Source: Coptis chinensis (taxonomy: Eukaryota; Streptophyta; Magnoliopsida; Ranunculales; Ranunculaceae). Taken from it: a stretch of 64,000 nt of DNA. The DNA is taken from NCBI GenBank assembly GCA_015680905.1, contig CM027378.1:41079001-41143000 (forward strand), read 5' to 3'. Numbering within the stretch: the first letter of the stretch is position 1; the number at the start of each line of letters is the position of its first letter. The position numbers and the translations under genes were made by a program. This document shows, piece by piece, positions 4,814 to 54,413 of the stretch. The notes under the pieces are model-generated. The model did no database searches and was not told the DNA's origin. It saw only the letters and a program-made list of their open reading frames with translations.

Positions 4814-4942
4814 ATATCCTAATAGATGCCTTAATTACATGTGTTTCTTTGCCACCCCAAAACAAGAAACATGCTTTGTCCTCAAAGTATTGAAATAAAA
4901 AGGGTAGAAAAATACCATGGAAACGCGTGAAATTTAGAACAT
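4814..4942 (-). other. 3' UTR of ORF B with polypurine-like module (W)
   Basis: On the minus strand this reads TTTGAGGACAAAGCATG and then a G-tract (CCACCCC on the plus strand at about 4852). It is the same module found downstream of ORF B in every copy. It resembles the module that abuts the 3' LTR. Confidence 0.6.
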
Positions 4943-5082
4943 CTGCAAAACAAAGTTAAAACATACTAATATAGAAAACATAAAAATAGACGCAACTCTA
5001 TATGAGTTCCACCCGTTATGGGGTTAACAAGAATTAAATTGCTTGGGACATAAGCAGACACTAACTAAAACTAAAAACTTAC
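4943..5082 (-). other. Putative 3'-UTR intron after ORF B (W)
   Basis: The donor GTAAGT at 5082-5077 and acceptor TTTTGCAG ending at 4943 frame 140 nt just downstream of the ORF B stop. Both sites are shared with the other copies. The segment contains the conserved AACTC..ATA..GAGTT inverted repeat. Confidence 0.6.
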
Positions 5083-10359: not shown

Positions 10360-10580
10360 GAATAGGGCGCGGGGTGCGCTCTGGTTAAGCATTGGGACGC
10401 GGGTCGCGCTCAGGTGAAACTTAAGTTCCAGGTGCTTCAGCATGGGGGGCGCTCAAACTTTGCCTTGGTAGGGTGTGGGTCACGCTCAGGTCCAATTCAA
10501 GTTCCAGGCACTTTAGCACGGGGGGCGCTCGAACTTTGCCTTGGTAGGGCGCGGGGTGCGCTTCGTGTATTCCTGCGAGG
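10360..10580 (-). repeat. GC-rich minisatellite in the W leader
   Basis: About two and a half units of roughly 75 bp, each with GGGCGCTC.AACTTTGCCTTG followed by GGGT(C/G)(A/G)CGCTC and AAGTTCCAGG, lie between the primer-binding site and the first ORF. They resemble the repeats before ORF B. Nothing else is seen in 10007-10359. Confidence 0.75.
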
Positions 10581-11015: not shown

Positions 11016-11147
11016 GATGAAATTTTATACTATAATGTTTTATACTCATGAATGTTACGATGATTTTCGGTTTTGGAAATTTTTGTTTCCGGCAATTGCC
11101 TTAAAACTTTTTGGCAACTTCCCAATTCATTTTGGAAACTAAAAACC

Positions 11148-11155
11148 TATATAAA
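11148..11155 (+). promoter_or_regulatory. TATA box upstream of ORF B (A1)
   Basis: TATATAAA is followed by a C/T/A-rich stretch with CACACACAACTCACATCTC, a plausible plant transcription-start region. The ORF B ATG is about 350 bp downstream. Confidence 0.55.
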
Positions 11156-11279
11156 CTTCATTCATTCTCCACACACAACTCACATCTCTCACTTTCATCT
11201 CTCACCTTTCACTCCCAAGTTTTCCTTCTTTTTCCTTCTCACTTCAGCATTTCAACACCTCTGAGTGTGCCTGCGCCTC

Positions 11280-11445
11280 AGTGGAGTGCCACCTGCGCCC
11301 ATAACATTGCCAGTCCAGTTTACCTTGAGTGCGACTCGCGCCCAAAACACTGTAAGTCCAAATTCTCTGGAGCGCGACCCGAGCTCATACAAGGGTTCAG
11401 TTGAGTGCACCCCGCGCCCTGACCCCCGTGGGCAAGAAAAATTCC
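11280..11445 (+). repeat. GC-rich repeat leader upstream of ORF B (A1)
   Basis: It has repeated GAGTGC..CTGCGCC, GAGTGCGACTCGCGCCC and GAGCGCGACCCGAGCTC units, with an intervening AACACTGTAAGTCCAAATT. It resembles the P gag leader, where AACACTGTAATT also follows GAGCGCGACCC units. Confidence 0.65.
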
Positions 11446-11502
11446 GATTTTTTGTGGGTTGTTTCAAGATCGTTTGCAGCTGTTCCAGAGGGTAGTTTTG
11501 AG

Positions 11503-12426
11503 ATGACATCTCCTACAGTCATACCGGAACAGTCTTTCGAAGATTTGTTCCAAAGCACCACCTATGGTGCTTGGTTTCGCGAGGTGATCATACACGTAGG
11601 CTGGGAACCGCTAATGGTAAGACCTGATGAACATTATTCTCTAGCACTTACATCTTATTTTTATGATAATTGCATGTTCTTTGATAGACCGGATGGAGAA
11701 CAAGTATTCTTCATCAACAATGAGGATGAACCAATGAAAATTACCAGGTTCTTGCTAGCATTTGTTCTTGGACTTGCTATGCCCGGTTAAATACAAGACC
11801 CATGGGGCTATTGGGTAGATAATATGTATGTCTACACCTATAAGTTTTTGCATAATGCTTATGGGGCAGGAATTTTCCGTATCGAGGACCAAGGGGAATA
11901 CAACGTCGCCCTTGGTAGCCTGTCCATGAAAGTGGGCAATGTTATGTTTTGGATCATGCTAAACATATTAGGGGAATGACATTTTTCATATGTGAATGAC
12001 GCCACTTGGAGCGTCTTCCTTGCTTTAGCCACGGGACGTATGTTTTATGACCTTCCCCGAACCTTAGTTTCTACTTTAGCGCGAGCCCATAGCATGAGGC
12101 ATAAGTACCTTCTTATACCTGTTTTAGTTTGTCGTATTATGCTATGTTTCTTCCCTATTTTATGTACCCGTTTCACGAATTGGGTTGGGGTCGACATTGT
12201 GAGACCCACCAATTGTATTATTCGACATTTTCGTGCAATGACTTGGCAAGGGTGGAGGATACAACCTCATCAGGTTGCACCTTACACTCCATCCGACCAA
12301 ATGGCGTTTAACAGGTTAGCATCCATAGATGATAAATGGTGTCAAGCCTGGCAAATTATCATGGCATGGCAGGACGCGAAGGAACCTCAATTATTTATAG
12401 AAGGAGAGGATGCGGAGGACGATTAA
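11503..12426 (+). pseudogene. ORF B, best-preserved copy (307 codons, two in-frame stops)
   Basis: The frame runs from the ATG at 11503 to TAA at 12424-12426 without any frameshift. It is broken only by TAA at 11788-11790 and by TGA at about 11978-11980, where other copies have Trp. This fixes the family length at about 307 residues. Order: P-E-Q-S-F-E-D-L (about residues 8-15), Y-G-A-W-F-R-E, Y-F-Y-D-N-C, L-L-A-F-V-L-G-L-A-M-P (to 95), I-E-D-Q-G-x-Y-N-V-A-L-G-S-L-S-M, R-A-H-S-M-R-H-K-Y-L-L, a hydrophobic stretch of about 20 residues, W-Q-G-W-R-I-Q-P, then an acidic tail. There is no signal peptide. It could be a distant relative of the 'putative plant transposon protein' domain or of Athila env-like ORFs; I infer this only from position and a weak pattern. 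Confidence 0.8.
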
Positions 12427-12438
12427 GCAGGAGATAAG

Positions 12439-12575
12439 GTAAGTTTTTAGTTTCAGTTAGTGTCTGTTTATGTCCCAAGCAATTTATTTCTTATTAACCC
12501 CATAATGGGTGGAACTCTTATAGAGTTGGGTTAGTTTTATTTGCTATATTAGTATGTTATAACCTTGTTTTGCAG
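12439..12575 (+). other. Putative 3'-UTR intron after ORF B (A1)
   Basis: AAG|GTAAGT begins 12 nt after the stop codon. A pyrimidine-rich CCTTGTTTTGCAG ends at 12575. Length is 137 nt and the segment is A/T-rich. It contains inverted repeats CCCATAATGGG and AACTC-TTATA-GAGTT. All six ORF B copies keep the same arrangement. Confidence 0.65.
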
Positions 12576-12631: not shown

Positions 12632-12668
12632 CTTTGAGGACAAAGCATGCTTCTTATTTGGGGGTGGG
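12632..12668 (+). promoter_or_regulatory. Internal polypurine-tract-like module (A1)
   Basis: CTTTGAGGACAAAGCATGC is followed by TTCTTATTTGGGGGTGGG. It closely resembles the terminal module at 14197-14231, which ends in the same TTTGGGGGTGG just before the LTR. Confidence 0.6.
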
Positions 12669-14196
12669 CATAGAAACACGTGTAATTAAGGCATATGTTA
12701 GGATATAGATATGTATAATATGCACTTATTTTCTAGTAAAATTTTGAAAATTTTTAAAATATAAATAAAAAATTATGCTATACACTTAGGAATATTGGCA
12801 TTGTTTTCTTTCTCTATGCTCTTAATAATCTAGAAGTCTCACGTAGCTTTTGCATTAGAATAGTTTTAGAATCTTAGGTTAATATATAGGTAATAATTTT
12901 TGCATCTATCTATAAATATATTACATGAGTATCTATGATTGTTTGGTAGTAAGTTTTTGAAATCTAGACTAGAGTACTTATTCTATAAATTCTGTGAGAA
13001 TATAGCCTAAAGCCTTATATGAGTAAAACATTTGAGAAATGACACAAGGGAAAAGTAAAATCCGGATAGAGAAATCACACGTCCACTTGCTTAATCAATA
13101 TACGATATCCTAAGTGAGAATTTAGGCCCTCTTTGGATCGATATAGCTAGAAATTCAAACCTTATGAAATTATTTTCCGTTAGTCACCCCTCTGAGCCTA
13201 TCTTTAGCCTTTCATAAACCACAATTCCTTTACCCTTTTACAAAACAAAATAAAAATAAAAATCAGCCTTCCCATTCTTTGAATGAGTCTGAGAATAGAG
13301 ATGAAGAAAAGAAAAGAGAAAGAACTTTGAAATCAAGAATTTGTTAGGCGCTTCAAATAAGAAAAGAAAGTTTCCATCCAAATAAAAAAAAAATAAAAGA
13401 AAATAAAGAGTTAGAACTCCAAAAATAGAATCAAAGGAGTCAAAAGACAAAGAAAAAGAAAAATATGGCTAAGGATGGAAATAAAGTGTAGAAGCAAAAG
13501 TAAAGAACAAGGTTTTCTCTAGTTACATAATATGAAGACTCTATTATCTCAGACTTGCCCTTTTTGAATATCGATTTCCTTCCTTCTTAAACAATCTCCT
13601 AATCCCCGCAACACCAAATAAAGTTAAGTAGCTCAATTAGGAATAGGTTAGTGTGATAGTATGTGGTAGATGTGTTTGATCGACTCTGGCTTTCTTGTGT
13701 GTCATTGAGATTGTAAGGTAAAGTGTGCCCACTGCACACTGGAGTAGCGAAACTTGAGAGGAAAAATCAGAGTGGTTTTTGTCTTGACATTTATGTGAGG
13801 ACCTACTTAAGGACGCTATTACGAGTTTTTAGAAACGGACCTGCTAGTGCATTTCATAGTATTACTCATTGTATATATGTTTATTCGTAGATGATTAATT
13901 ATTATGCATATATTAGCTTAGGTTTCGACTTGGTTATTCTTCATTCATTGCTAGTGAGATATATAGATAATTGGGAGCATAAATAAGGAAACAATAGTTT
14001 TATTTCTTAGTCGTTATAGTATAAATGAAGTTTGTGAGTACCTTCATTGGAAAATTCTCACAAGGCTATAACTCATCCACTAGGGAATTCCTAGTAGTTT
14101 AAGGCCTTGTTGCATATGGTCAATGCAATCGCACTCGGCGAAACGAGATTAGTTAGAACTCCATTTTTGCTCACTTATGCTAATTTCTTATATTTG
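12669..14196 (+). other. 3' spacer (A1)
   Basis: No ORF is supported. The spacer is A/T-rich, with a purine-rich tract at about 13240-13480 (many GAAAAGAAAAG runs). It ends with sequence repeated almost unchanged in A2, P, Y and Q. Confidence 0.6.
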
Positions 14197-18523: not shown

Positions 18524-20150
18524 AACTACCACCAAACAGCATTTTGCTTGTCCTCAAGCAAATTTGAGAAATTAGAATAAGTGACCAAAAATAGAGTTCT
18601 AACTAATCTCGTTTCGCTGAGTATGATTGCATTGACCATATGCAATAACGCCTTAAACCACTCGGAATTCCCTAGTGGACGAGTTATAGCCTCGTGAGAG
18701 TTTTCCAGTGAAGGTACTCACAAACTTCATCTATACTACAATGACAAAGAAATACACCTACTGTTTCTTCGTTATTCTCAGGTATCTATATATTTCACTA
18801 GTAATGAATGAGAATAATCAAGTCGAAACCTAAGCTAATATATGCATAATAGTCAATCATCTACGAATAAACATATATACAATGAGTAATACTTTGAAAT
18901 GAACTAACAGGTCCCTTTCTGAAACTTTGGAATAACGTCCTTAAGTAGGTCCTCACATAAATGTCAAGACAAAAACAGTGTGGAGTGGGCACACTTTACC
19001 TTACAATCTCAATGACACACAAGGAAGTCGAAGTCGATCAAACACATCTGCCACTTACTATCACACTAACATATTCCTAATTGAGCTAGAGGTCTTATTT
19101 AGGTGTTGCGGGTATTAGGAGATAGTTTAAGAAGGAAGGAAATGGATATTCAAAAAGAACAAGTCTGAGATAATTGAGTCTTCATATTATGTAACTAGAG
19201 AAACCTTGTTCTTTACTTTTGCTTCTACACTTTGTTTCCATCCTTAGCCATTTTTTTCAGTTTCTTTGGCTTTTGATTCCTTTCATTCTATTTTTGGAGT
19301 TCTATCTCTTTATTATTTGTTTTTTTATTTATTTATTTTTTTTTTATTTGGATGGAAACTTTCTTTTCTTATTTGAAGTGACTAACAAATTCTTGATTTC
19401 AAAGGTTTTTCTCTTTTCTATTCTTTATCTCTATTCTCAGACTCATTCAAAGAATGGGTAGGCTGATTTTTATTTTTATTTTGTTTTGTAAAAGGTTAAA
19501 GGATTTGCGGTTTATGAAAGGCTAAAGAAAGGCTCAGAGGGGCGACTAGCGGAAAATAATTCATAAGTTTGAATTTCTAGCTATATCGATCCAAAGAGAG
19601 CCTAAATTCTCGCTTAGGATATGATATAGTGATCAAGCAAGTGAAAGTGTGATTTCTCTATCAGGATTTTACTTCTCCCTTGTGTCATTTCTCAAATTTT
19701 TCACTCATATAAGGCTTTAGGCTATATTCTCATAGGATTTGTAGAATAAGTACTCTATCCTAGATTTCAGAAACTTACTGCCAAACAATCATAGATACTC
19801 ATGTAATATATTTATAGAAATATGCAAACATTATTACCTACATATTAACCTAAGTTTCTGAAAACTATTCTAAAGCAAAAGCTAACGTGAAACTTCTAGA
19901 TTATTAAGAGCAGAGAAAAATAAAACAATACCAATATTCCTAGGTGCATAACATCATTTTTTATTTATTTTTTGAATTTTTGAAATTTTACTAGAAAACA
20001 AGTGAATATTGTACATATCTATATCCTAAGAGATGCCTTAATTACACTTGTTTCTATGCTACCCCCAAACAAGAAGCATGCTTTGTCCTCAAAGTATTAT
20101 AATAAAAAGGGTAGAAAAATACCATGGAAACGGGTGAAATTTTGGAATAT
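18524..20150 (-). other. Polypurine tract and 3' spacer of Y
   Basis: The terminal polypurine module reads minus-strand at 18562-18524, here with GGTGGT in place of GGGGGTGG. The internal module (ACCCCCAAAC at 20061, then AAGCATGCTTTGTCCTC) is at 20060-20094. Between them is A/T-rich spacer with a purine-rich tract on the minus strand at about 19250-19480. No ORF is supported. Confidence 0.6.
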
Positions 20151-20289
20151 CTGCAAAACAAGGTTAAAACATACTAATATAGATAAAGAAAAACAAACGC
20201 AACTCTATATGAGTTCCACCCGTTATGGGGATAACAAGAATCAAATTGCTTGGGACATAAGTGGACATGAAATGAAACTAAAAACTTAC
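20151..20289 (-). other. Putative 3'-UTR intron after ORF B (Y)
   Basis: Donor GTAAGT at 20289-20284 (AAG|GTAAGT) and acceptor TTGTTTTGCAG ending at 20151. It is 139 nt and starts about 14 nt after the stop codon. Confidence 0.65.
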
Positions 20290-21996: not shown

Positions 21997-23173
21997 CTAG
22001 CCACGAGATAAAGATGGACCCTGAGATGAAGATTGGGCCTGGGTTGAAGATGGGGCCTGGGATGAAGATGGGCCTAGGCCATCCGTCCTTTGGCGACAAC
22101 GCTCGTGCCTCATAGACTCCCCTAAGGAAGAACCCCGCATAGGTGGCATGCGTTCTAGAATCTCTACTCGGAATCGGCATTGTGCTTCCATCTTTTCCTT
22201 CATTTCTACCCAATGCGCATCCTGACGCTGGACGAGAGTCTCCATGTTATACTGGAGATCCTTCCCACCATCGTTGAGCTGTTCATAATTTGTCTGAAGG
22301 TTCTTTTGTTTATTTCTAATTATAATCTGCATAGTCCGTAAATCTTCACAAATACTATAAACACAACACAAGCCACTATGCAGCACTGACATGTGTTCTA
22401 AATTAGAGGTACAACTTTCCAAGGCATTGGCATCCAAACATGTTATATCCTCCATCTCATCATTCGAATCGACCACCCTATCGTCCAGCAACTTCCAAGT
22501 CTTTTGGATACACTCCGTATAAATAATTGCATTTGAATGCAATTTTAACATAATACGATCAGATTTTGTAACAGCTCTAAAAGACATCATGATCTTAGTA
22601 ATCAATATCGGGAAGGGCGCAATACTCTTTCCAACTCCTCTAATCATATTTAAAATAAACTCGAGGATGCATAGTTTATACCTCTTCTCTTGTAATATCT
22701 AGAGAACGTGCAGACAGGTTAGACCGATGTCACTGACTTTCTCTTTCCCGATGATGTTCTTACCAATCCACTGAGCTACAGCCAGCTGGTTGGTTTGCAG
22801 AGATGATTGTCAGACACAATGAGAATTCGGATTGTACCATCCCTCTATGACAGTGTCTTTCATTAATGCAGGAACTCCAGCATACTGATTCCTGCAAGGT
22901 GGCTTCGAGATGGCGTTCCAGCATAATGCCTAAAATATCTACCAACAACTCTCTAGAAACTTCTCTCCTCGTCCCAGCCACCTTCACAAAAAAATTCTGA
23001 CCCTCCAACTCCCTCTTCTTATAGAATTGTTCGACCAAATCGGAGTGGTAGAAATCATCTGTCGAATACCACAACCTATTTCAATCCCTCCTAATCTTCT
23101 CATCACTTAAAAACAGCGCAAAGCAGTTGGCAGTAAAAGCTTGTTCCAGCAAAATTCTTCGTCTTTGAGCCAT
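21997..23173 (-). pseudogene. ORF A, coiled-coil 3' protein, broken copy (Y)
   Basis: The start is the ATG at 23173, giving a basic start with R-R-R-I-L-L-E-Q-A-F; P and Q have the same start. The first part has R-x-W-N-R-L-W-Y-S-T-D-D-F-Y, L-V-E-Q-F-Y-K-K-R-E-L-E-G and G-T-R-R-E-V-S-R, resembling the 'putative plant transposon protein' / Athila 3' ORF pattern. After a break (about 22760-22650) comes G-V-G-K-S-I-A-P-F-P-I-L-I-T-K-I-M, then a long heptad-like segment (about 22440-22200, likely coiled coil), then a Ser/Gln/Pro-rich tail ending at TAG 21999-21997. At least two frame changes inactivate it. Function unknown; its place corresponds to the env-like ORF of Athila. Confidence 0.75.
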
Positions 23174-32837: not shown

Positions 32838-32958
32838 CTGCAAAGAAAATTTAGAACATACTAATATAGATAAATAAAAACAGACGCAACTCTATATGGG
32901 ATAACAAGAATTAAATTGTTTGGGACATAAGCAAACACGAACAAAAATTAAAACTTAC
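32838..32958 (-). other. Putative 3'-UTR intron after ORF B (Z)
   Basis: Donor GTAAGT at 32958-32953 and acceptor TTTCTTTGCAG ending at 32838, 121 nt. It is shorter than the others because part of the internal inverted repeat region is deleted. Confidence 0.6.
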
Positions 32959-34976: not shown

Positions 34977-35189
34977 TCAACTATAAACTAATAGTTGAAA
35001 GAGTTGGGGGTCAAGCCATAAAAATATGATACTAAATGCACCCCCAAATAGAATGAAGTTGTATAATTGGAAGCAATCATGTAGAAGAATAAAAGAAAAT
35101 TTATGCAACCCATCAAAGAACATATACAAACCATCATGTTGTAGCTGTGTTAAAGAGTTAGAATGACCCAAAAGATGAATTAGTGATAC
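34977..35189 (-). pseudogene. C-terminal end of the Z accessory ORF (part 2)
   Basis: Minus-strand residues ending Y-D/F-D-G-L-H-K-F, a hydrophobic run including F-I-L-F-G-G-A-F and I-F-L-W-L, and D-P-Q-L-F-Q-L-L-V-Y-S before the stop at 34977. The GATAC at 35185-35189 is the target duplication made by P. The frame is continuous with 51035-50308 once P and one GATAC copy are left out. The hydrophobic run could be a membrane anchor. Confidence 0.65.
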
Positions 35190-36688
35190 TGATAAGAGCC
35201 CAAAACTGTAGTTTTAACCCCTTAGCAGTCATACTTTTAGACCAATTAGGTGAGTAATAAGTAAGAGTTAAGACTGATTACGTGTTTTTATGTATTTCAG
35301 GCTTCAAAGTCAATTATGTGCAGGAATGTGCCACTTTGATGAGATAAAGGAGCAATGGTTGGTTACTAAGGAGTTCGGTGATTAAAGGCCAAGATTCAAT
35401 AAGACAAAGCCTTTGTAAAGCCTGGTCAAAAGATGAAAAGTCAAAGTCCACGCAGTGTAAAAAGCTTGATGCACAAAGTCAACAGAACTTCCGAAGACCA
35501 TATCTTTAGACTCAGACCTCGGAATTGGGCCTACCTTATGTGAAAACGACCGGCTCGGAAATAGATTTCCAATGGTCCAAGCCTTGACCCAATCAGAGGA
35601 GCAGAAGTGGACGAAAAGTCTATTGAAGCGAACTGTAGCTGAAGAGGCCTTTTGAATTTGAAGACTTGGGTTTTGGGCACGATTCTCTCGCCCCAAAAAC
35701 ATGGCTCCAAGCCCATGCACGATTTTTGGATCTGGATGTATAAAAACAAAAGCTTCACTCTTTGTTAATGGTAGCTAGTTAGACCTAAATTAATATATAG
35801 AATTCTAGATCTAGTTTTATTAATTAATTAAGTGTTAGTTCCATTTCAATTCCTGTTTTAGATTAAATTCTTGAATCATTGTTCTTGATTGATTAGATAA
35901 ATAAAATAGTTAGTTTGTCAATTTCGAATTTGGTTATTTCCATTCTAGATCTAATTTCAATTCTTATTCTCATTTCATTCCAGCCATTAAATTAGATTCA
36001 TTATTGTTAAATTAAGTAAATCTCAATTTCTTACATTATGTTTAGTTTAAATTCAATGGGAAATGTTAGTTTGATGAATCAAGGCTAAAACCTCCATTAG
36101 AGGGGTTGATGAAGCCTTGATGAAAACTTAGTGGTTAGTATAGAATTGGTTGTAGAATCTATTCCACTCTAGAAGGTCGTGTTTCGCCATGAGAATGGGT
36201 GGACGACCTCACATGCTAGTTAGTATCCGGTAGGAATGCCATGAACACTAGGGATTAGAACTCGAAATTCTCGCCCGTAGAACGCGTGAGAATTGAGATA
36301 CAACATTCTACGCTAGGTCGTTAAGTTGGATTCGAGGTGGATTCAATTCCCCTCTAATTTATTTATCTAGATTCAAACAATCGTATTTCCGTAGCTTCGT
36401 AGATTAACTTTAGTTTATATTTTATAATTTATATTTAATTTAAAATAACGCGTCTTGTTAGCATAACATTTCGTAAAGCTCTCATTGACTTAAGACTGAT
36501 TTCTTAGACTTAGAAAACAATCCATGCTAGGGAACTAGGAGTGGAACGAACTTCCTACTCCACTTAGTGCAATTCGCATCGAGAGTAGAAGCTTTGATAA
36601 TTGAGATAGTAAAAGTCCAGTTTTAGTTTACTTACGGATTGAATTCATCGTTCATTTCGTAGGTAAACTATTCATTTTACAGATATCA
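35190..36688 (+). repeat. 5' LTR of P
   Basis: It runs from TGATAAGAGCCC to AGATATCA. The probable promoter TATAAAAAC lies at 35739-35747. The primer-binding site follows at 36691. Confidence 0.93.
35739..35747 (+). promoter_or_regulatory. LTR TATA box (P)
   Basis: TATAAAAAC about 550 bp into the LTR. The 3' LTR has the same at 49358-49366. Confidence 0.55.
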
Positions 36689-36690
36689 AA

Positions 36691-36710
36691 TGGCGCCACT
36701 GCCATCTTAG
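36691..36710 (+). promoter_or_regulatory. Primer-binding site (P)
   Basis: TGGCGCCACTGCCATCTTAG, two bases after the LTR. It resembles the tRNA-Asp type site of Athila with two mismatches in the first 13 bases. Confidence 0.8.
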
Positions 36711-36834
36711 TTGCACTTTAGCATTGTTTTCCTTGTAGAAGTAGTCATTTTTAAGTCCCATTAAACCCACCCACCCTTGTTTGTTTCATACTGTGGTTGC
36801 TCATTTCAGCGTTGACAAATTCCGCGAGAAAATA

Positions 36835-37020
36835 CGGGCGGCGCCAGCTTCAAGGAGAGACCAGCGCTAAGTTACTGGAATTTAAATCTACCAGCTGAGC
36901 CCGCGCCATACCAAAGCGACCAGCTCAAACACTGTAATTCGAATTTACACTGAGCGCGACCCGCCCCCATTTGGAGCGCGACCCACGCTAAAAACACTGT
37001 AATTTGACAATTACTTTCGG
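36835..37020 (+). repeat. GC-rich repeat leader of gag (P)
   Basis: GAGCGCGACCCGCCCCC, GAGCGCGACCCACGC and two AACACTGTAATT elements occur in about 180 bp before gag. The remaining leader (37021-37281) shows nothing else. Confidence 0.65.
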
Positions 37021-37281
37021 GCCTGGCGAAGCCATACGTGGTTAAATTTTTCGGATTTCGACAGTTTTGATTCAAACTTTGATCTTTCATATTTTTCAGT
37101 GTTCTAATCTCTTATATACACTGAACACGCGTACACAAGACGCTATTCATAAAAAGCGAAAACAAGGACGCTTATCGGTATTCCTTTCTTCCATACCTCG
37201 CATTTCGGTTAGAGGTTTTCTACTAGTATATCGAGATTGTTTGGAGTGTTGCATGTTTAGTTAAGCTCAACTTAGTCTTGC

Positions 37282-39110
37282 ATGAGATTAAGGTCCAGTC
37301 GAACAAAACAACAAACGTAATTACACGCAACAAACAAGTCTATCTAGTATACCACACACTACACCTCTAGCTACTATTTCACACACACCACCTGACATAA
37401 TGGGGGAAGAAAGAGAGACTCCTCTCTCCGACTTCTACAAAGCCTTGAGCGATAGCCCTAAATCGTGCATCGTTCTAGCAGACCCAGTGGGGGATTTTCG
37501 AATCCCCCCAAACATATTTAATTTGTTACCCGTTTTTCATGGGTTAGACAATGAAAAACCTTATCAGCACATGCGTAGGATTGAACAAGTCCTTACAACA
37601 TTCCATCATCCTACGGTAGGTGCGGAACAAATTAAACTGAGGGTATTCCCTTTCACATTAGCCGATAAGGCGGCGTCTTGGTTAACTGCCCAAGCGCCTA
37701 ATTCTGTGGACTCGTGGGCTAAACTTGTTCAAATTGTTTATGGAACATTTTACCCACCCCTAAAACGGATGAGATGCTTTCCAAGATTCATTTTTCCGAC
37801 GAATCCTCATGAATCATTTTCGAGGCATGGAATCATTTCACCGATCTCCTTATAGAGTGTCCACATCATAACTTAGCTAAAGACACGTTAGTTCGTGCCT
37901 TTTCAAAGGTCTTCTACACCACCATAAAGAAGTCCTTGACATAATGAATGGGGTAGTTTCCTAAGTAAAGGAGCCTCGGAGGCTTACAAATTTTAGAAGA
38001 CCAAACTAAACGAAATAATAATTGGGGGTAGTGATGATATCCCCGGCTCGATAGTTCTTCTTCAACAACAAATCAAGGCAGCGGTATGTTTGAGAAGAAA
38101 ACCGATCCGAACTTAAAAATCTAATCGAATCTCTAACTAAAAAGTAGAGGCTATTTCTGCTCAACAAAAGCCTATCCCCGCCATGAATGTAAACTCCAAC
38201 CCATGTAATTTCTGTTTGAGTCCGAGCACCACGGCGATTATTGTCCTCTAGCTTATGAACAACAACCACGCTGGAACAAGATAATGTTTACTCTATTAAT
38301 AACTATCCTATTCCTAACTTTGGAGACAACATCCCAACTTCATGGAGAAATAATCAACAAGTAACACCTCCGTGGTACAATAATCAAAGCGTTAGGCAAG
38401 CAAACAATTATAACCAAGCTCCACCTAGGCAAGGACAAGGACAAGGACAAGGTCAAGGGAATTATAATAATTATAACAACCAAAAACAAACCACGACAAG
38501 GTCAAGCACAAGGTCGAATAATTATAATAATTATAATACCAACAGAGGTATCGTTCCTGTTAATAATAATAACTATCACAACCCACCCATAAATAATCAA
38601 CGAGAGATAGTTCGGTCGCACCACCCGTGACCACTACACCTACACAACCGGATCGAATCGACGCCTTTATACAAGTTACCCAACAACTTTTCCAGACAAT
38701 GACTCAATCAAACCAACAGATTTTACAATCCATAAATCGGGGCATACAACGGTTAGCCCAAGCGAAAGCCCAACCAAAAGGCGTGTTTCGGGACAAGCGA
38801 TACCAAACCCTAAAACAAAGCAAACCACGGCCTTTGAGGTAAACGGTAATTCTAGTACGGAAACTACAATGCGTAGGTGACCTAAATGCCATCACCACTC
38901 TCCGTTTCGAAGAGTGGTTGATAACAAAAATAACTACGCCTATAGTTACCCCATCGGTACTCCCCACACCGGATATCGAACTAGATACCGCAATAGAAAC
39001 TGAGGAGCCTACCACGGTAGAGGTACCGGTTAAATCACAACCAAAGAAACCGAAAAGCCAAGGTTACCGCGGCAAAGTAGAGCCATATCGCGAAATATAG
39101 AAGCGAAACC
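37282..39110 (+). pseudogene. gag: gag with zinc knuckle (P)
   Basis: The ATG at 37282 starts M-R-L-R-S-S-R but the frame stops soon after. The capsid-like frame resumes at 37400 (M-G-E-E-R-E-T-P-L) and keeps N-I-F-N-L-L-P-V-F-H-G-L, V-F-P-F-T-L-A-D-K-A-A-S-W-L and W-A-K-L-V-Q before a frameshift near 37735. The knuckle start C-N-F-C is at about 38204-38215, with the rest frameshifted. A Gln-rich region with a GACAAG-type tandem run (about 38427-38457) and an acidic region (38918-39100) follow. Its similarity to Y gag is clear. At least four frame changes. Confidence 0.85.
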
Positions 39111-39132
39111 ACCGTTCCCTCAAAAATTAGCC

Positions 39133-41640
39133 ATGCTAACCGGGGATACAAACTTTGAGGAAATTAGGAACGTTTTCAAGAATCTAACGATAAACCTTCC
39201 TTTTCTCGCTATTAAAAAGCTACCTAACCACGCTAAGTTTCTTAAAGAGTTGTGCACTACTAGGCGTAGACAAACATACCTAAAGACGCTTTTTAAGCTG
39301 AACGGTTCCCAACTTTATCCGAAAATAATGGAATTGTTAAGTACAAGGACCCTGTTGTCCTCTTCAGAAAATGCACCTTAGGAGATTCCCACACCTACGA
39401 CCGCCTTATTAGACACGGGCGAAAGTGTTAACTTACTCCCGTATTACTTGTATAAACAAATAGGTCTACAGGAAATGCAACCTACAAAAATAAACGCGTT
39501 GCAATTAGCGGACGTGTCAATTAAGTATCCTAAAGGTGTAGTGGAAAACGTGCTTGTTAAGGTTCGGGATTTCTACTATCCTGCTGATTTTGTTATCCTC
39601 GATCTGAGGTAAGTCTAATGACTCAGTACCGATCATCTTAGGGCGCCCTTCTTGGCAACCGCCAATGCGCTTTATAAATTGTCGCGATGGAAAGATGTCC
39701 TTATCTTTTGGCCATCTTTTTGTCGAGGTAAATGTTTTAAAATGATGAAACAGATTACCAGATTCGATGCGTAGATGGGGAGGTTAGCATGATCGAGTTT
39801 ATCTCAAGATTATTTTAACAACACGTTTCCTGAAAACAATATGTTCAAATTCCTTTCTTTTGGAACTTCAGATTTTGTAAATGACTCCTACTTAGAGGAA
39901 GTCAACACCATCCTGGAGTCCACACCAATTGTAGACCCGTCGGTTGCTCCATATACTGATTACGAAGACTTGCTTCCTTCATTACGCAAGATAAGGACAC
40001 TTATGAAACATCAACGGACATTCCGTCCACACCAGTGCTTAAACCTCTTCCCTCGGAGTTAAAATATATTCAACTTGATCCGGATGGTAGTCACCCGATA
40101 ATTATATCTTCTCTGTTAACTAAGGATGAAGAGACATGTTTAATAAGGGTGATTAGGGAACATCGGTCTGCGATTGGTTGGTCCCTAGCCGACATTAAGG
40201 GAATTGACCCTAATGTTTGCACTCATCGTATCCATTTGGAGGATAACACGAAGACTTCTCGCGAACCTCAACGTCGCTTGAACCCTGCCATGAAAGAGGT
40301 GGTTAGGGAAGAAGTCTTGCGTTTACTCGATGCGGGTATTATATATCCAATCTCTGATAGCGAATGGGTAAGTCCCATTCATGTAGTTCCTAAGAAATCG
40401 GGAGTTACCATGGTACGTAACGGGAAGGGTGACTATGTTGTCACTCAAGGTCCTACGAAATGGAGAATCTGTATTGATTCTGAGGCGTTTAAATGCTATG
40501 ACACGAAAAGGATCACTTTCCCTTACCATTTATAGATCGGATGCTAGAACGTCCTAGCTGGTCATGCCTTTTATTGTTTTACGGATGGCTACTCTCGGCT
40601 ATTTTCAGATTATTATTGATATTGATGACCAAGAAAAGACAACCTTCACATGTCCCTTCTAACATATGCCTATAATCGAATGCCTTTTGGCCTTTGTAAT
40701 GCCCCTGGTACCTTCCAGCGATGTATGCTTCATATATTTAGTGACATGGTAGAGCGCTTTATGGAAGTGTTCATGGATGATTTTTCTATCTATGGAGACT
40801 CCTTTACAGAATGCTTGTCTAACCTGTCTAAGGTCTTGACACGGTGTGAAGAAAAGAGCATCGTTTTAAATTGGGAAAAGTGTCATTTCATGGTCAAAAA
40901 GGGCATAGTACTAGGTCATATTGTATCTAGTGATGGCATCGAAGTAGATAAAGCCAAACTAGATAAGATAGCGACCCTACCTAAACCACGGACTGTCCGT
41001 GAGATTAGAGCCTTTCTAGGCCATGCAGGGTTTTATAGGCGTTTCATTAAAGATTTTTCGAAAATAGTTAGGCCTTTAACTAACCTGCTTTTGAAGGATG
41101 CAATCTTTGATTTTAATTTTAACTGTAAATAGGCTTTTGAAACCTTAAAAGCATCCCCTAACCATCGCACCTATTATACAGACCTCTGATTGGTCTAAAC
41201 CTTTCGAACTCATGTGTGATGCTAGTGACTATGCAGGTTGATCTTTGTCTTGGGACGAAACTAGATAATAAGTCCACTGTTATTTATTATGCTAGTAAAA
41301 CATTAAACGACGCTCAACGGAATTATACAACTACTGAAAAAGAATTCTTAGCTGTCATTTATGCTTTAGATAAGTTTCGTCCTTATTTGGTTGGTTCTAA
41401 AACTTTAGTTTACACGGACCATGCAGCCCTTAGGTACCTTCTTGCAAAGAAGGATGCTAAGCAGAGATTAATCCGATGGATTCTTCTCCTGCAAGAGTTC
41501 ACATTAGAAATAAAGGACAAAAGAGGGGTCGAAAACGTAGTTGCCGACCACTTATCTAGACTTACAAATGACGATAGTAGTGATTCTGAGTCCATACCGG
41601 ACTCTTTTCCTGATGAGCATCTTTATGCTATTTTTTCAGC
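39133..41640 (+). pseudogene. pol: Protease, reverse transcriptase and RNase H (P)
   Basis: Protease: N-L-T-I-N-L-P-F-L near 39185 and D-T-G-E-S-V-N-L-L-P from 39412, where Y and Q read D-L-G-A-S. Its L-G-R-P is at about 39640, followed by a frameshift. RT: L-K-P-L-P-S-E-L-K-Y-I-Q-L (from 40035), P-I-S-D-S-E-W-V-S-P, a break near 40500-40650, M-P-F-G-L-C-N-A-P-G-T-F-Q-R-C-M, and catalytic F-M-D-D at about 40770-40781. RNase H: T-D-H-A-A-L-R-Y near 41417 with the Asp that Y lost, and [17 protein letters not shown] at 41129-41131 replaces CAG/CAA. The catalytic residues remain but the frame is broken several times. Confidence 0.9.
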
Positions 41641-42936
41641 ACCATGGTATGCTGACATTGTAAATTATTTAGCAGCTGATGTTATGCCTTATAATTGGTC
41701 AAGAAATGAACGTAAGAAGTTCTTGGCCAGAGTCAAGTTATACTACTGGGATGAGCCCTACCTTTTTAAGTATTGTGCGGATCAGATTATTCGTCGTTGC
41801 ATTCCCCAGTGGGAATATAATGAAGTTCTATCGTTCTGCCATGACAAAGAGTGTGGTGGCCACTTTAGTGGAATGAAAACAGCCGCTAAAGTTCTTCAAT
41901 GTGGATTTTATTGGCCTACCCTTTTTAAGGATGCCCAAGTGCATTGCAAGACGTGTATTATTTTTGCCAACAACTTGGGCTTAATCACGGCGTAATATGA
42001 TGCCATTAAATCCAATCTTGATAGTAGAAATTTTTGATGTTTGGGGTATTGATTTCATGGGCCCTTTCCCTGTTTCCCACGGTTATATTTATATTCTAGT
42101 TGCCGTGGACTACGTGTCTAAATGGATAGAGGCCCTAGCTTGCCGTAGCAATGACCATAAGACCGTTGTATTTTTATTAAAGAATATATTTTTTCTGTCG
42201 GTTTGGCATTCCTAAAGCCATCATTAGTGATGGTGGAACACATTTTTGCAATAGAGTTGTTGCATCCCTAGTGAAAAAGTATGGAGTTACACACAAAGTA
42301 GCAACTCCTTATCATCCACAAACTAGCGGACAAGTAGAAGTTTCTAATAGGAAATCAAAAAGATTTTAGAAACAACAAGAAACCCCGATAGGAAAGACTG
42401 GTCGGCGTCGTCTATCGGATGCCTTATGGGCATATAGAACTGCTTTCAAAACTCCTATAGGTATGTCTCCCTTTAGACTTGTATTTGGGAAACCATGTCA
42501 TTTGCCCGTTGAATTAGAGCACCGTGCTCGTGGGCTATAAAAAGCCTTAACTTCAATATTGATGAGGGCGGTGTCAAACGCAGTTACAATTAAATGAGCT
42601 TGAAGAAATCCGTGGCGATTCTTACGATCTCGAAAGGATTATAAAGCTAACATGAAACGTGTTCATGATAAGCATATCTTGCACAAAAGAGTTTGTGGTC
42701 GGACAAAAGGTTTTGCTTTACAACTCCCGCTACATATTTTCCGGGAAACTAAAAACCCGTTGGTCCGGCCCTTTTTCTAAGTTCTTGAAGTCACCCCCTA
42801 CGGGCAATTACCTTGGTAAATCCCAAGGACAACAAGTACCTTTCAAGTTAACGTTCAACGATTAAAACATTTTCACGAACTTCGTCCCCCCGATATAGAG
42901 GAAGTCCTTTTACAGGACCCTATATATGAGGAATGA
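41641..42936 (+). pseudogene. pol: Integrase (P)
   Basis: The zinc-binding region (about 41830-41965) reads [10 protein letters not shown] and ends H-C-K-T-C. The catalytic core has D at 42051 (G-I-D-F-M-G-P-F), D at about 42228 (S-D-G-G-T-H-F) and E at 42337 (G-Q-V-E-V). Frameshifts lie near 41970, 42175, 42345 and beyond. The C-terminal region (R-W-S-G-P-F near 42760) has no chromodomain. The stop TGA is at 42934-42936. Confidence 0.88.
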
Positions 42937-43199
42937 CCCTTGTCATTGGTGTACTTCTTTCACTTCCATTTAATGGTAAGTGCACCATTAAGGTAACCGG
43001 GCCCTCCCTATGGAGTGTGTGGCTGTAAGTACCGGATCCTAAGTCCATGGTTCACATATTTCACGTTTTCCACTCTTGCATGTTTTCTCGGATTTTTGAG
43101 TCATGTTTCTCTATGGTGTGAATTATGTCTTTATTTGCTTAATGTTTTTCCTATAAAAAAAAATAAAAATAATAAAAATAAAAATAAAAATAAAAATAA

Positions 43200-43279
<80 letters not shown>

Positions 43280-44093
43280 TAATAATTGTTTTCATTTTTA
43301 GATATAGATATATATCTAAACCCAGAGAACTAGCAATCCAACAAGTCCGGATTGCTCGAACTTTAAACGACCCATGTTAAAACAAATTTTGTGTTTAAAA
43401 ATTTGTTTGGGGGTGGGAAATCGGTCTTTCCATCCGGATTGCTCGAACTTTCTATTTGTGTTGCTTAAGTCCATTAGTATAGTTCATTGGGGTTGACGTC
43501 ATCTAATTTAGTGTTTATTCGTTCGCATAACTTACGTCATGCACGCACTTCGAGGCGTTTTCCACTATCTTATATGTCACCCACGGTCGGAATAGAGTAG
43601 ATTATGGATCATTGGATTGGAAATTTTCTCCTGATCATTTCCATATCTCATTCGCAAAAATCGGACCGATAACGAAGCGGGAAATTTAGTTTGAAGTTGC
43701 GCTAAAAATCGACGAAAGTCGAAAAATCGAATTTGGGCTTTGGTAGACTTCGCTTCTATCTGAAGCCAGCCATCCTCCAAAACAGAATCGCGACTTCATC
43801 TTCTCAAACCGCCTTTCACTAATTCAAATTAAACCCTAGCAACCAAAAATAAAAAAAAATAAATAAAGAAATAAAAATAAAAATAGAATACATCAAAATA
43901 GAAAGACCACCCACGCCCTTTGTGAAACACCAACACAATCTCCAACCGTTTCCACCAAGAAAACACCCACCAATTCAAGTTTTCAAACCTGCCACCGTAA
44001 CCACCACTGCCACCACCATTGTTTCTCGTTGTTTTTTATCAAACTCGCCTCCCCCACAGGCTACAAAAACCATTAGTTATCTAAGAAACTTCA
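42937..44093 (+). other. Post-integrase spacer and ORF A leader (P)
   Basis: The conserved post-integrase block (about 42945-43050) carries several donor-like sites, including GTAAGT at 43025-43030. An A/T microsatellite follows, then GTTTGGGGGTGGG at about 43407 and a possible splice acceptor CCTCCCCCACAG ending at about 44060, 34 bases before ORF A. No ORF is supported. Confidence 0.5.
43154..43287. repeat. Compound AAAAAT / AAAT / AAT microsatellite
   Basis: About 130 bp of pure A/T simple repeats downstream of integrase in P. It is absent at the same place in Y. Confidence 0.9.
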
Positions 44094-45249
44094 ATGGCGC
44101 TACGACGAAGAATGTTGCCGGAGCACGCGTTTGAGGCCGACCATTTCGCACCATTTTACGACGCCAATATGATTAAGAGGGATTGGAACAGACTGTGGTA
44201 TTCGACAGATGAGTTCTATCACTATGATTTGGTAGAACAGTTTTATAAGAAACGAGAATTGGAGGGAAATAGGATTTTCATTAGGATAGCAGGAACGAGG
44301 AGGGAAGTAACGAGACAGTTGTTGGCTGAGCTATTAGGAATCACGCCTGTAACCAACCTAGATACGACCATTCAGGAATCCCAGTATACTGCAGTTCCTG
44401 TTTTGATGAAAGATACGGTCATAGAGGGTGAATATAATACGATATCCCATTCGTTAGCCGGACGACCTTGAGAACCAATCAACCGGGTCAGCTTCGGTGG
44501 ATTGGTAGGAACGCCCCTGAAAGACAAAGTCAGCGACATCGGACTTCGTGCGTGCCGCGTTCTGGATTTTGCAAACGAATGAGTGTAATTTCTGCATCCT
44601 CGATTTAATTTTGAATGTGATTAGAGGAGTGGGAAAGAGCATGGCGCCTCTTCCCGTATTGATCACTAAGATTATGCTCTCATTTAGAGCTGTCGCTAAA
44701 TCTGCTCCTATTAAGATCAAATTGCATTCTAATGCAAGTATTTATAAGGAATGCATCCAAGAGACTTGGCCGTTGTCTGCAGAGAATGAAGTTGAGTCGC
44801 ATAATGAAGGGGAAGATATGACATGGTTGGTTGAGGATAATTTCGATAGTCATACTTCTAATTTAGAACGAATGATAATGCTGCAAACTGGTTTGCGATG
44901 CGGTTATCGTATCTGTGAAGATATCCGACATAGACAAATTGTACTTCGAAATAAGCAAATGAACTTTCAGACGAGAGTTGAAATGCTCGAAAGGGGTCAG
45001 GAAGATATCTTGTCTAACTTGGAGATTATCCACCAGAATCACCAAGCCCAGTATGCAGTACTCAAGACTGAGATGGAAGCACAGCGCTTGTTCAGGATAG
45101 AGATGCTACGACGCATGCCACTCGTGGATGAGTCTGTCTCAGCTGAGTCTGAGAGGCATGAGCGTCGTCGCCGCAGGCCAGATGGCTCAAGCCATTCTTC
45201 ACCACAGAACCAGTCTCCATCCCAGGGACCATCTTCTTCACACGCCTAG
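44094..45249 (+). pseudogene. ORF A, coiled-coil 3' protein (P)
   Basis: The ATG at 44094 starts M-A-L-R-R-R-M-L-P-E-H-A-F. The first open piece (to 44471) has W-N-R-L-W-Y-S-T-D-E-F-Y, L-V-E-Q-F-Y-K-K-R-E-L-E and G-T-R-R-E-V-T-R. Frame changes between 44450 and 44550 separate it from the second piece (44548-45249), which has F-C-I-L-D-L-I-L-N-V-I-R-G-V-G-K-S and P-L-P-V-L-I-T-K-I-M, a long predicted coiled-coil region around 44880-45090, and a Ser/Pro/Gln-rich tail ending at TAG 45249. It is about 385 codons if the frames are counted through. Known Athila elements carry an env-like ORF here; no fusion peptide or convincing transmembrane helix is seen. Confidence 0.78.
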
Positions 45250-45660
45250 GTGTTCACCATCAGTTGTGTCCTGTTATTTCATTTCATTTTTTTTTTTTTT
45301 TGTTTTGTTAGTGGAATTTTATTTCAGTAGTTAGATTTGAATATTAAGTTGTTTGTTTTCGATTGCTTGGATTTCATATTATTTTAATATAATTTATTTT
45401 GATCATCTTTCGTAAAGTTGTCTTGGAGTCAAAGTTGAAAATTAGGCCGATATCGGCATATCTATGATTTTTTTGTAGTGGTAGCATGATATGTAGTAGA
45501 GTTTAGAAGTTACTATTCTAAACCAAGTTTAAAAGATACCAGGGTTGTTAGGAAATCAAAACTATGGTTAGTTTCCGTTTTCGGGTTTGGCGTTTTCTAT
45601 TTCGGAAATTGCCTTAAAACAATTTGGCAACTTGCCGATTCGTTTTGGAAACCCAGAACC
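45250..45660 (+). other. Spacer between ORF A and the ORF B promoter (P)
   Basis: A/T-rich, no ORF. It contains a T-run at 45289-45301. The polypurine-like motif present here in Y, W, Z and Q is not seen. Confidence 0.4.
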
Positions 45661-45669
45661 TATTTAAAC
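45661..45669 (+). promoter_or_regulatory. TATA-like box upstream of ORF B (P)
   Basis: TATTTAAAC is at the position of TATATAAAC in A1, followed by the same C/A-rich stretch with CACTCACAACCC. Confidence 0.45.
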
Positions 45670-45774
45670 TTCCATCAATCTACACTCACAACCCATACTA
45701 CACCCCACAATCATCTCTCACCTTTCACTCCAAGCTTTTTCTGCTTGTTTTCTTGTAAACACTTGTTTACGATT

Positions 45775-45990
45775 TCTACGCGCCAGCCAAGCTTTCGATA
45801 AAGCTGGCGCTGCGCCTATACACTTCCACAAATTTTTTTCGAGGCAGCCAAGCAAGAGCTTGCGACTCGCCCTATAACACTGTAAATCGAAAAATCTCAC
45901 GAAGCCGAAGCGCCCAAGCGCGACCAGCATGAAACACTGTAATTTAAAACCTACGAAGCGCTTCCTCCTCCTCCCGTAAGCACAGGAAAT
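45775..45990 (+). repeat. GC-rich repeat leader upstream of ORF B (P)
   Basis: GCGCCAGCCAAGC, AAGCTGGCGCTGCGCC and CAAGCGCGACCAGC units and two AACACTGTAA elements, as in the gag leader. The units are more eroded than in Y or W. Confidence 0.5.
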
Positions 45991-46048
45991 TCCGATTTTC
46001 TGAGGTTTCTTCCAGGTTTTCGCAGCTGTTCTACAGAGTAGTTTTGAG

Positions 46049-46962
46049 ATGACACCTCCTATAGTGATTCCTGAACAGTCATTTGAAGACTTGATGGGAA
46101 CCGATACCTATGGAGCATCGTTCCGCGAGCGGATCGTGCAGTTAGGATGGCGGCATCTTCTGGTGAGTGATGACGATTCTTTTTCACCTAAGCTAACTGA
46201 ATTCTTCTATAATAATATTACTTTTTTGTACCCAAGAAGGAGAACAAAATTTTCCCTTGCTATTCTTTGCACGACTATGGAATTCAGATAAGCAATTGAT
46301 AGCTTTGGTTTCGGGGTTGCCATTACGACCCTGCACACACGTGGGGATATATGACGGATAACTCATACCTATATGAATATGCCTATTTCCATGAGTATTA
46401 TGGGGAGGGTGTTTCAATATCATGGACCAAGACCAATATAACATCGCCTCGAAAGTAGCCTATCGCTGAATGTAGGCACAACCATGTTGTTCATCATGAT
46501 GAACATTCTAGAAACGGCGGTTTACTTACGCCAATAATACCGGCGGTGACGCGTTTTCCTTGATTTAGGCGAGGGGACGTCGTCGGTATGACATTCCCCG
46601 AAGTTTTAGTTGCTACTACTGAAGCGAGGCCATACCTTGAGGCATAAGTACCTTCTTATGCCTGTCTTGGTTTGCCGCATTATCTTGGCGCTTGCCTACC
46701 CATATTCTGTACCGCGATTACCGAGTTGGGAAAGGGTCGAAACCATGAGACCCACCAATCGTGGTGGTAAGATCATTCCGAGCCATGACTTGGCGGGATG
46801 GCAGGTGCAACCACATTTGGTTACCCCTACACCCCATCAGACCAAGTAACACTAGAGAGGTTAGCACTAGTTGATGATACACCTACGGGAAGGCGTGGCA
46901 AGTTGTTATGGCATGGCAGGATCTGAAAAGAACCTCATATAGAAGAGGAGGATGACGAGTAA
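46049..46962 (+). pseudogene. ORF B, broken copy (P)
   Basis: The ATG at 46049 begins M-T-P-P-I-V-I-P-E-Q-S-F-E-D-L and is of the same subtype as Y (L-L-V-S-D-D-D-S-F-S-P-K-L-T). The frame is lost near 46230 and is regained in pieces, for example 46610-46849 with L-R-H-K-Y-L-L-M-P-V-L-V-C-R-I-I. The acidic tail ends D-D-E at TAA 46960-46962. Many single-base indels in a copy this young are suspicious. Function unknown. Confidence 0.75.
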
Positions 46963-46977
46963 ATCTTTGGGGTGCGG

Positions 46978-47116
46978 GTAAGTTTTAGTTAAGTTAGTGT
47001 TTGCTTATGTCCCAAGCAATTTCATTCCGTTAACCCCATAATGGGTGGAACTCTTATAGAGTTGTGTCAGTTTTTTTTATATTACTATATTTGTATGTTT
47101 TAACCTTGTTTTGCAG
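46978..47116 (+). other. Putative 3'-UTR intron after ORF B (P)
   Basis: GGGTAAGT begins 15 nt after the stop codon, and CCTTGTTTTGCAG ends at 47116, 139 nt. The inner inverted repeats CCCATAATGGG and AACTC-TTATA-GAGTT match A1 exactly. Confidence 0.65.
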
Positions 47117-48775
47117 ATGTTCCTGAATTTAACGCGCTTCAATGGTATTTTTCCTACCATCCTTATTTAAATGCTTTGAGGACAAAGCATGCTTCTTGTT
47201 TGGGGGCATAGAAACACGTGTAATTAAGACATCTGTTAGGATATAGATATGTATAATATGCACTTGTTTTCTAGTTAAAATTTCAAAAATTTAAAAATAT
47301 AAATAAAAAAAAGTATGCTATACACTTAGGAATATTGGTATTGTTTTCTTTCTCTATGCTCTTAACAATTTAGAAGTCTCACATAGCTTTTGCATCAGAA
47401 TAAATGTTAGAAACTTAGGTTAATATGTAGGTAATAATCTTTGCATCTATCTATAAATTTATTACATGAGTATCTATGATTGTTAGCAGTAAGTTTTTGA
47501 AATCTAGGCTAGAGTACCTATTCTACAAATCCTGTGAGAATATAGCCTAAAGCCTTATATGAGCGAAACATTTGAGAAACGACACAAGGGAGAAGTAAAA
47601 AATCCGGATAGAGAAATCACACGTCCACTTGCTTGATCACTAAGCCATATCCTAAAAGCGAGAATTTAGGCCCTCTTTGGATCGATATAGCCGAAATTCA
47701 AACCTATGAATTATTTTCCGCTAGTAAGCCCCTCCGAGCCTTTCTTTTTAGCCTTCCATAAACCACAATTCCTTTACCCTGTTACAAAAAAAAACAAAAT
47801 AAAAAAAAAAAAAAGAATAAATCAACCTACCCAATTTAGAATAAGTCTGAGAATAGAATGAGTGAAGAAAGAAGAAGAGAAAAACCTGTGTAAACAAAAA
47901 TTAGTTAGTTGCTTCAGAAAAAGAAAAGAAGTTTCCATCCAAGGAAAAAGAAAAAAAATATATATATATATATATAGAAATAAATAAAAACTCCAAAAAA
48001 TAGAATAAAGGGAGTCAAAAGCCAAAGAAAAGAAAAAGAAAAATATGGCTAAGGATGGAAACAAAGTATAGAAGCAAAAGGAAATAACAAGGTTTTCTCT
48101 AAGTTACATAATATGAAGACTCTATTATCTCAGACTTGTCCTTTTGAATATCCATTTCCTTCCTTCTTAAACCATCTCCTAATCCCCGCAATACCTAATA
48201 AAGACCTCTAGCTCAATTAGGAATAGGTTAGTGTGATAGTAAGTGGCAGATGTGTTTGATCGACTCCGGCTTCCTTGTTGTCATTGAGATTGTAAGGTAA
48301 AGTGTGCCCACCGCATTAATCGGAGCAAAAATAAACTTGAGTGGAAAAATCGAGTGGTTTTGTCTTGACATTTATGTGAGGACCTACTTAAGGGCGCTTA
48401 TTATGAAGTTTCAAACGGACCTGCTATTACATTTCATAGTATTACTCATTGTTATATGTTTATTTTAGATGATTGATTATTATGCATATATTAGCTTAGG
48501 GTTCTGACTGGGTTATTCTTATGTATTTGCTAGTGAGATGTATAGATAGTTGAGACATGAATGAGAAAACAATAGTTTTATTTCTTAGTCGTTGTAGTAT
48601 AGATGAAGTTTGTGAGTACCTTCACTGGAAAACTCTCACGAGGCTATAACTCGTCCACTAGGGAATTCCTAGTGGTTTAAGGCCTTGTTGCATATGGTCA
48701 ATGCAATCGCACTCAGCGAGACGAGAGTAGATAGAACTCCATTTTTGGCCACTTATGCTAATTTCTCATATTTGC
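47117..48775 (+). other. 3' spacer of P with internal polypurine module
   Basis: The internal module (CTTTGAGGACAAAGCATGC then TTGTTTGGGGGC) is at about 47175-47208. A purine-rich tract lies at about 47790-48060 with a (TA)n run at 47959-47976. No ORF is supported. Confidence 0.55.
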
Positions 48776-48808
48776 TTGAGGACAAGCAAAATGCTGTTTG
48801 GGGGTGGT
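48775..48808 (+). promoter_or_regulatory. Polypurine tract of P
   Basis: CTTGAGGACAAGC then GCTGTTTGGGGGTGGT, directly before the 3' LTR. Confidence 0.75.
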
Positions 48809-54277: not shown

Positions 54278-54413
54278 CTGCAAAACAAGGTTAAACATAC
54301 TAATATAGAAAATAAAAACTGACGCAACTCTATAAGAGTTCCACCCATTATGGGGTTAATGAGAAATATATTGATTGGGACATAAGCAGACACTACCAAA
54401 AATAAAAAGTAAC
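54278..54413 (-). other. Putative 3'-UTR intron after ORF B (Q), donor mutated
   Basis: The acceptor CCTTGTTTTGCAG ends at 54278. The donor reads AAG|GTTACT at 54413-54408 in place of GTAAGT, so GT is kept. The conserved AACTC-TTATA-GAGTT inverted repeat is present. Confidence 0.5.

Follow-up and report, generated by a model that had tools for sequence, protein, structure and literature searches.

An intron lying in the sense orientation of a long terminal repeat (LTR) retrotransposon is expected to be lost whenever the genomic RNA is spliced before reverse transcription. How such an intron might persist is the question raised by the 64,000-nucleotide (nt) stretch of the Coptis chinensis contig CM027378.1 analysed here (hereafter, the window). 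Nested copies of a single kind of LTR element make up most of the window, which holds six homologous copies of a short intron-like segment, located just downstream of the stop codon of an accessory open reading frame, ORF B, in which nothing encoded would force its retention. We asked whether this segment is a spliceable intron, which RNA would be spliced, and how the element might keep it. The six copies are as follows:

4943–5082, minus strand: intron of copy A, 140 nt, match to the donor–acceptor pattern.
12439–12575, plus strand: intron of copy B, 137 nt, match to the donor–acceptor pattern, reading GATAAG/GTAAGT...TTTTGCAG/ATGTTC (slashes mark the splice sites).
20151–20289, minus strand: intron of copy C, 139 nt, match to the donor–acceptor pattern.
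32838–32958, minus strand: intron of copy D, 121 nt, match to the donor–acceptor pattern, lacking 17 nt that hold the CCCCATAAYGGG palindrome.
46978–47116, plus strand: intron of copy E, 139 nt, match to the donor–acceptor pattern, within the complete element E1.
54278–54413, minus strand: intron of copy Q, 136 nt, with the donor GTTACT and an ORF B frame that overruns the stop.

The intervals, lengths (121–140 nt), splice-site words and A/T richness proposed in the initial annotation were all reproduced on recomputation. The donor is GTAAGT in five of the six copies (GTTACT in Q), the acceptor is TTTGCAG in all six, and the A+T content of the introns is 66.9–72.7%, compared to 51.7–60.0% in the 120 nt upstream. 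The six copies are homologous repeats, and their agreement largely reflects shared descent and not six independent observations. The segment was also said to start 10–20 nt after the stop codon. This holds for the five copies that keep the stop, where the distance is 12–15 nt (14 nt in A, C and D, 12 in B, 15 in E), and fails in Q, where the homologous stop lies outside the ORF B frame and the frame enters the intron. The pattern GTAAGT-N(105–132)-TTTGCAG matched six times in the window, against 0.05 matches expected from shuffled sequence, and five of these matches are intron copies. Both splice sites are near consensus with GT–AG ends: among 91 copies fetched as the best matches to three intron-bearing queries, GT was present in 88, AG in 84 and both in 81.

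The strongest evidence comes from genomic copies that lack exactly the intron. The assembly (935.6 Mb in 116 contigs) was searched with a 35-nt exon–exon junction pattern: with up to three mismatches, seven places were found, and the same pattern read backwards gave none. When the junction had to be exact and 0 to 30 extra bases were allowed at the join, five places were obtained, three at offset 0 and two at offset +2; no other of the 31 permitted offsets was used. The two copies joined at +2 (L102 and L103) have a longer exon end reading GATAAGAG and were counted as exact because the distance from TAA to the join is 14 nt, as in the intron-bearing copies A, C and D. A junction pattern of the C/D type matched four places, none of them new (L089 and L095 from the mismatch search, L102 and L103 from the exact search). 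In total, nine distinct intronless places were identified (L089–L095, L102 and L103), with flanks resembling the A, B, Q and C/D subfamily types. As a control, a deletion of equal size displaced by 30 nt was sought and found in 0 places. Exact loss of an intron means that an RNA spanning the site was spliced and then reverse-transcribed into DNA. The earlier proposal of a spliceable intron is thus upheld, and on sequence evidence there is strong support for reading the segment as a true spliceosomal intron of the ORF B 3' untranslated region.

Intronless copies are rare. The acceptor-side pattern matched 4944 places and the donor-side pattern, which covers one exon-end type only, matched 1400; these places were matched by one side only, the whole intron not being confirmed place by place, and on this basis the intronless fraction is roughly 0.1–0.6%. 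These counts support the suggestion that the genomic RNA stays mostly unspliced. Over the 480 nt that precede the join, the closest sequence is clearly an intron-bearing copy for L089, L090, L091 and L092, and L103 shows a tie; L095 and L102 match each other best, and L093 and L094 are interrupted in this part. Over the 480 nt that follow, the closest sequence is intron-bearing for six of the nine, in many cases only narrowly, and another intronless copy for L093, L094 and L095. On a sampled tree of 81 sequences, parsimony required seven switches between the intron-bearing and the intronless state for each of these regions, in keeping with several separate events. The number is approximate, since the tree was midpoint-rooted, the two regions disagree on the root state, and sampling of C, D and Q was thin.

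Two further observations concern these copies. L090 joins a B-type ORF B exon to E-like downstream sequence, and is as such a recombinant between subfamilies. The sixth match to the donor–acceptor pattern in the window, at 11352–11479, was rejected as a second candidate intron: other copies do not retain its donor and acceptor words, and the intronless copies L091 and L092 align across it without a gap of that size.

The element that carries the intron is best seen in E1:

35190–50307, plus strand: complete LTR element E1, with direct LTRs, gag, reverse transcriptase, RNase H/integrase, extra ORFs and the intron on one strand.
35185–35189 and 50308–50312: 5-bp target duplication GATAC flanking E1.
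48778–48808, plus strand: polypurine tract region adjoining the 3' LTR of E1.
44548–45249, plus strand: other extra ORF of E1, lying between pol and ORF B; Pfam gave no match above the cut-off.

Since E1 is complete, flanked by a target duplication and intron-bearing, it was made from unspliced RNA. Its LTRs are 95.8% identical (BLAST) and differ by a Kimura two-parameter distance of 0.036, which corresponds to an age of about 1.4 million years at an assumed rate of 1.3e-8 per site per year. Gag, reverse transcriptase, RNase H and integrase follow each other in gypsy order inside the direct LTRs: domains of reverse transcriptase, RNase H and the integrase zinc-binding region were detected on the plus strand, the gag match is below the Pfam cut-off, and the integrase core was found in a related copy in the window. 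Both the intron and ORF B are in sense orientation relative to gag-pol in E1, where they are placed between pol and the 3' LTR, and in the other five copies ORF B is oriented as the downstream LTR match, this match being partial for A and C. From LTR and element size, a tRNA-Asp-like primer site and the integrase tail, we take the lineage to be probably Athila, and refer to the element as an abundant Athila-like Ty3/gypsy element. No Pfam match above the cut-off, to the Athila ORF-1 domain PF03078 or to any other family, was obtained in the ORF B pieces, in one open ORF B frame or in the other extra ORF. The Athila ORF-1 domain does not define the lineage, as no more than 16% of Athila elements are reported to have it (PMC6317226). 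In related copies, the interval between pol and ORF B also holds the second extra ORF (44085–45249, plus strand; 21997–23080 and 56393–57020, minus strand), again with no Pfam match above the cut-off.

The intron follows an ORF that may belong to a transcription unit of its own, for which copy B provides the reference features:

11503–12426, plus strand: reading frame of ORF B in copy B, ATG to TAA, interrupted by in-frame stops.
11146–11156, plus strand: TATA-like box CCTATATAAAC upstream of ORF B, copy B.

Between E and either A or B, ORF B differs at 43–46% of third codon positions, 28% of first positions and 21–22% of second positions. The excess at position 3 indicates that ORF B has evolved as a protein-coding sequence. 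The majority of copies are broken today, and an ATG-started open frame of at least 280 amino acids ending near the donor was present in 2 of 68 copies. One protein search for homologues returned none of 1045 candidates at E ≤ 0.001, a weak negative as the query was out of frame at its start. A pattern search located the TATA-like word upstream of ORF B in 40 of the 68 copies, and in the six window copies the 60 nt from the TATA are 78% alike, compared to 56% for the leader that follows. An AATAAA is present 181–190 nt past the acceptor in five of the six copies; copy A has none there, its homology ending earlier. The TATA-like block and the similarly spaced AATAAA would fit a separate spliced ORF B transcript, without being proof of it. 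The 12–15 nt from stop codon to junction would likewise fit an escape from nonsense-mediated decay.

Two side observations were made in this region. The AATAAA at about 12756–12770 (plus strand) and at the homologous sites may provide a poly(A) signal for ORF B mRNA, in an A/T-rich region where the word could occur by chance. GC-rich imperfect repeats (GCGCGACCCGCGCCC-like) were seen by eye at 10380–10570 (plus strand) and in the ORF B 5' leader, a part whose length varies among copies.

We consider the following scheme to be probable as a whole. The segment would be a spliceosomal intron; ORF B would be transcribed from its own TATA promoter, and its mRNA normally spliced, with a junction so close behind the stop codon that the exon-junction complex triggers no decay. 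The LTR-driven genomic RNA would mostly escape splicing, and the intronless copies would stem either from rare splicing of genomic RNA or from template switching onto spliced ORF B mRNA.

Several results weigh against this scheme. Other dinucleotides of the intron are retained as well as the splice dinucleotides, which rank 57th and 88th of 136 among the 91 copies chosen as best matches to intron-bearing queries. Intron divergence among subfamilies A, B and E is 6.7–7.5%, which resembles that of the remaining 3' non-coding region (1.7–15.3% in the 60 nt after the intron, 3.5–6.6% in the next 1.25 kb). The shifted-deletion control consisted of one pattern, whose halves were not counted separately. 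No intronless E-type copy was found; the E-type junction search gave seven matches, all rejected because the matching letters are acceptor sites of intron-bearing copies. The TATA-like word was not found by pattern in 28 of the 68 copies. Finally, in four of the nine intronless copies (L089, L091, L092 and L094), similarity to the element extends upstream of the ORF B TATA position, the other five being too short, interrupted or unaligned that far upstream.

As for conservation, the intron first seemed far better conserved than ORF B, and this was dropped as evidence for splicing once the downstream control showed that the whole 3' non-coding part behaves alike in A, B and E. The initial annotation had named donor and acceptor words no better conserved than the rest of the spacer as an outcome that would count against an intron, and this is what was found. 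Among decaying copies of one family, splice-site conservation is a weak and non-defining test, and we consider it outweighed by the precise losses. A separate feature of this region is a sharp drop in divergence at 12427–12439 and the homologous sites, from 24–34% over the 50 nt that lead up to the donor to 2–6% over the first 50 nt of the intron. This drop may mark a recombination boundary, as if subfamilies had swapped their 3' parts.

If there were no intron at all, the segment would be non-coding 3' sequence whose GT and AG ends arose by chance, and the nine losses would be ordinary DNA deletions. The unremarkable conservation relative to the flanking spacer would suit this explanation. 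It is, however, very improbable, as the exact-junction joins fall at only two of 31 allowed offsets (three at 0, and two at +2 that are exact when measured by the 14 nt from TAA) and the shifted deletion does not occur. The rivals that accept the intron differ on which RNA it serves. The element sequence upstream of the TATA in four intronless copies implies that the copied RNA was no simple ORF B mRNA. It might instead be that one LTR-driven transcript is alternatively spliced, with a spliced pool for translation or export and an unspliced pool for replication, and with no ORF B promoter, as in the scheme of Ogre or of the short GAG of EVADE and BARE. Besides these four copies, all three intronless copies followed downstream (L090, L091 and L092) reach the polypurine tract and the 3' LTR, as this explanation would have it. 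Their 5' LTRs were not found in the element's orientation at the distance expected from E1, so that these three are not proven complete. Yet removal of the intron alters no reading frame, the copies differ less in the TATA-like block than in the leader behind it, and recombination with a spliced ORF B mRNA would give the same copies. We regard alternative splicing of the genomic RNA as an unlikely explanation. The template itself was either spliced genomic RNA or genomic RNA recombined with spliced ORF B mRNA, both of which leave the same copies.

The intron could also police itself, by holding a cis element for packaging, dimerisation or export that the genomic RNA needs: spliced RNAs would then seldom transpose and the intron would not be lost from the population. 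By far most matched places keep the intron even though its splice sites are near consensus, which is in keeping with this idea, and so are the short palindromes CCCCATAAYGGG and AACTCWTATAGAGTT that recur mid-intron. But copy D lacks the first palindrome, the intron is no more conserved than its surroundings, and conserved structured RNA was not apparent: fold energies are ordinary in all six copies (z from -0.58 to 0.59), and an Rfam scan of the intron gave three weak matches, all below the gathering score. Such a role for the intron is quite improbable. We return to the scheme of a spliced, own-promoter ORF B mRNA, within which a further role can be imagined: the 3' untranslated intron would act as a tag that separates two RNA pools, the RNA from the internal promoter being spliced and exported as a sense accessory mRNA and only intron-keeping genomic RNA being normally copied, hence the maintenance of a non-coding intron in thousands of copies. 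We advance this as a tentative proposal, more doubtful than not.

We then compared the element with known systems. In Bagy2, splicing reportedly expresses an env-like ORF from a long RNA, whereas the present intron lies downstream of ORF B. Bagy2, which belongs to the Athila lineage, is nonetheless similar in that splicing is tied to an extra, env-like ORF at the 3' side (PMC7264820, PMC6317226). Plant LTR elements that contain introns are presented as exceptions, Ogre and EVADE being named (PMC12786077, PMC6317226). Ogre, of the Tat clade of Ty3/gypsy, likewise has a sense intron, spliced from only a subset of transcripts (PMC6317226); the intron of Ogre lies between protease and reverse transcriptase, whereas the present one is located after the ORF B stop, downstream of integrase, and its removal causes no frame change. 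Spliced and unspliced pools of one plant element are also described for the short GAG of EVADE and BARE (Ty1/copia; PMC12786077), but in EVADE splicing removes the protease domain, in contrast to the non-coding intron near the 3' end found here. An accessory gene between pol and the 3' LTR exists in Grande as gene23, with its own promoter (PMC7264820). The accessory genes of Grande and Retand are, however, antisense to gag-pol (PMC7264820, PMC11963269), and ORF B is in sense. In the case of Cer1 of C. elegans, a spliced mRNA yields a nuclear protein needed to export the unspliced RNA of the element (PMC12786077); ORF B would resemble it in having a spliced mRNA. The literature search, in which subscription journals were poorly covered, turned up no case of an intron in the 3' untranslated region behind an accessory ORF in sense orientation, so that novelty is unproven.

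We view the element as a variant among the known intron-bearing plant LTR elements, with its intron in the 3' untranslated region of an accessory ORF in sense orientation. The family, in which nine precise losses stand beside about 4900 acceptor-side matches and the intron lies outside the coding frame, makes directly testable how an LTR element shields its genomic RNA from the spliceosome. The same family makes testable whether the sense accessory gene of a plant element uses its own promoter.

One last feature lies downstream of the intron:

12636–12664, plus strand: polypurine-tract-like motif of copy B, about 60 nt past the acceptor.

This second motif (GAGGACAAAGCATG...TTTGGGGG) was found by pattern in five of the six copies, the others being at 47178–47206 (plus strand) and at 4855–4883, 20062–20090 and 54189–54217 (minus strand). 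In E1 it precedes the tract of the 3' LTR by about 1.6 kb, and it may be an internal start of plus-strand synthesis or the relic of an older 3' end.
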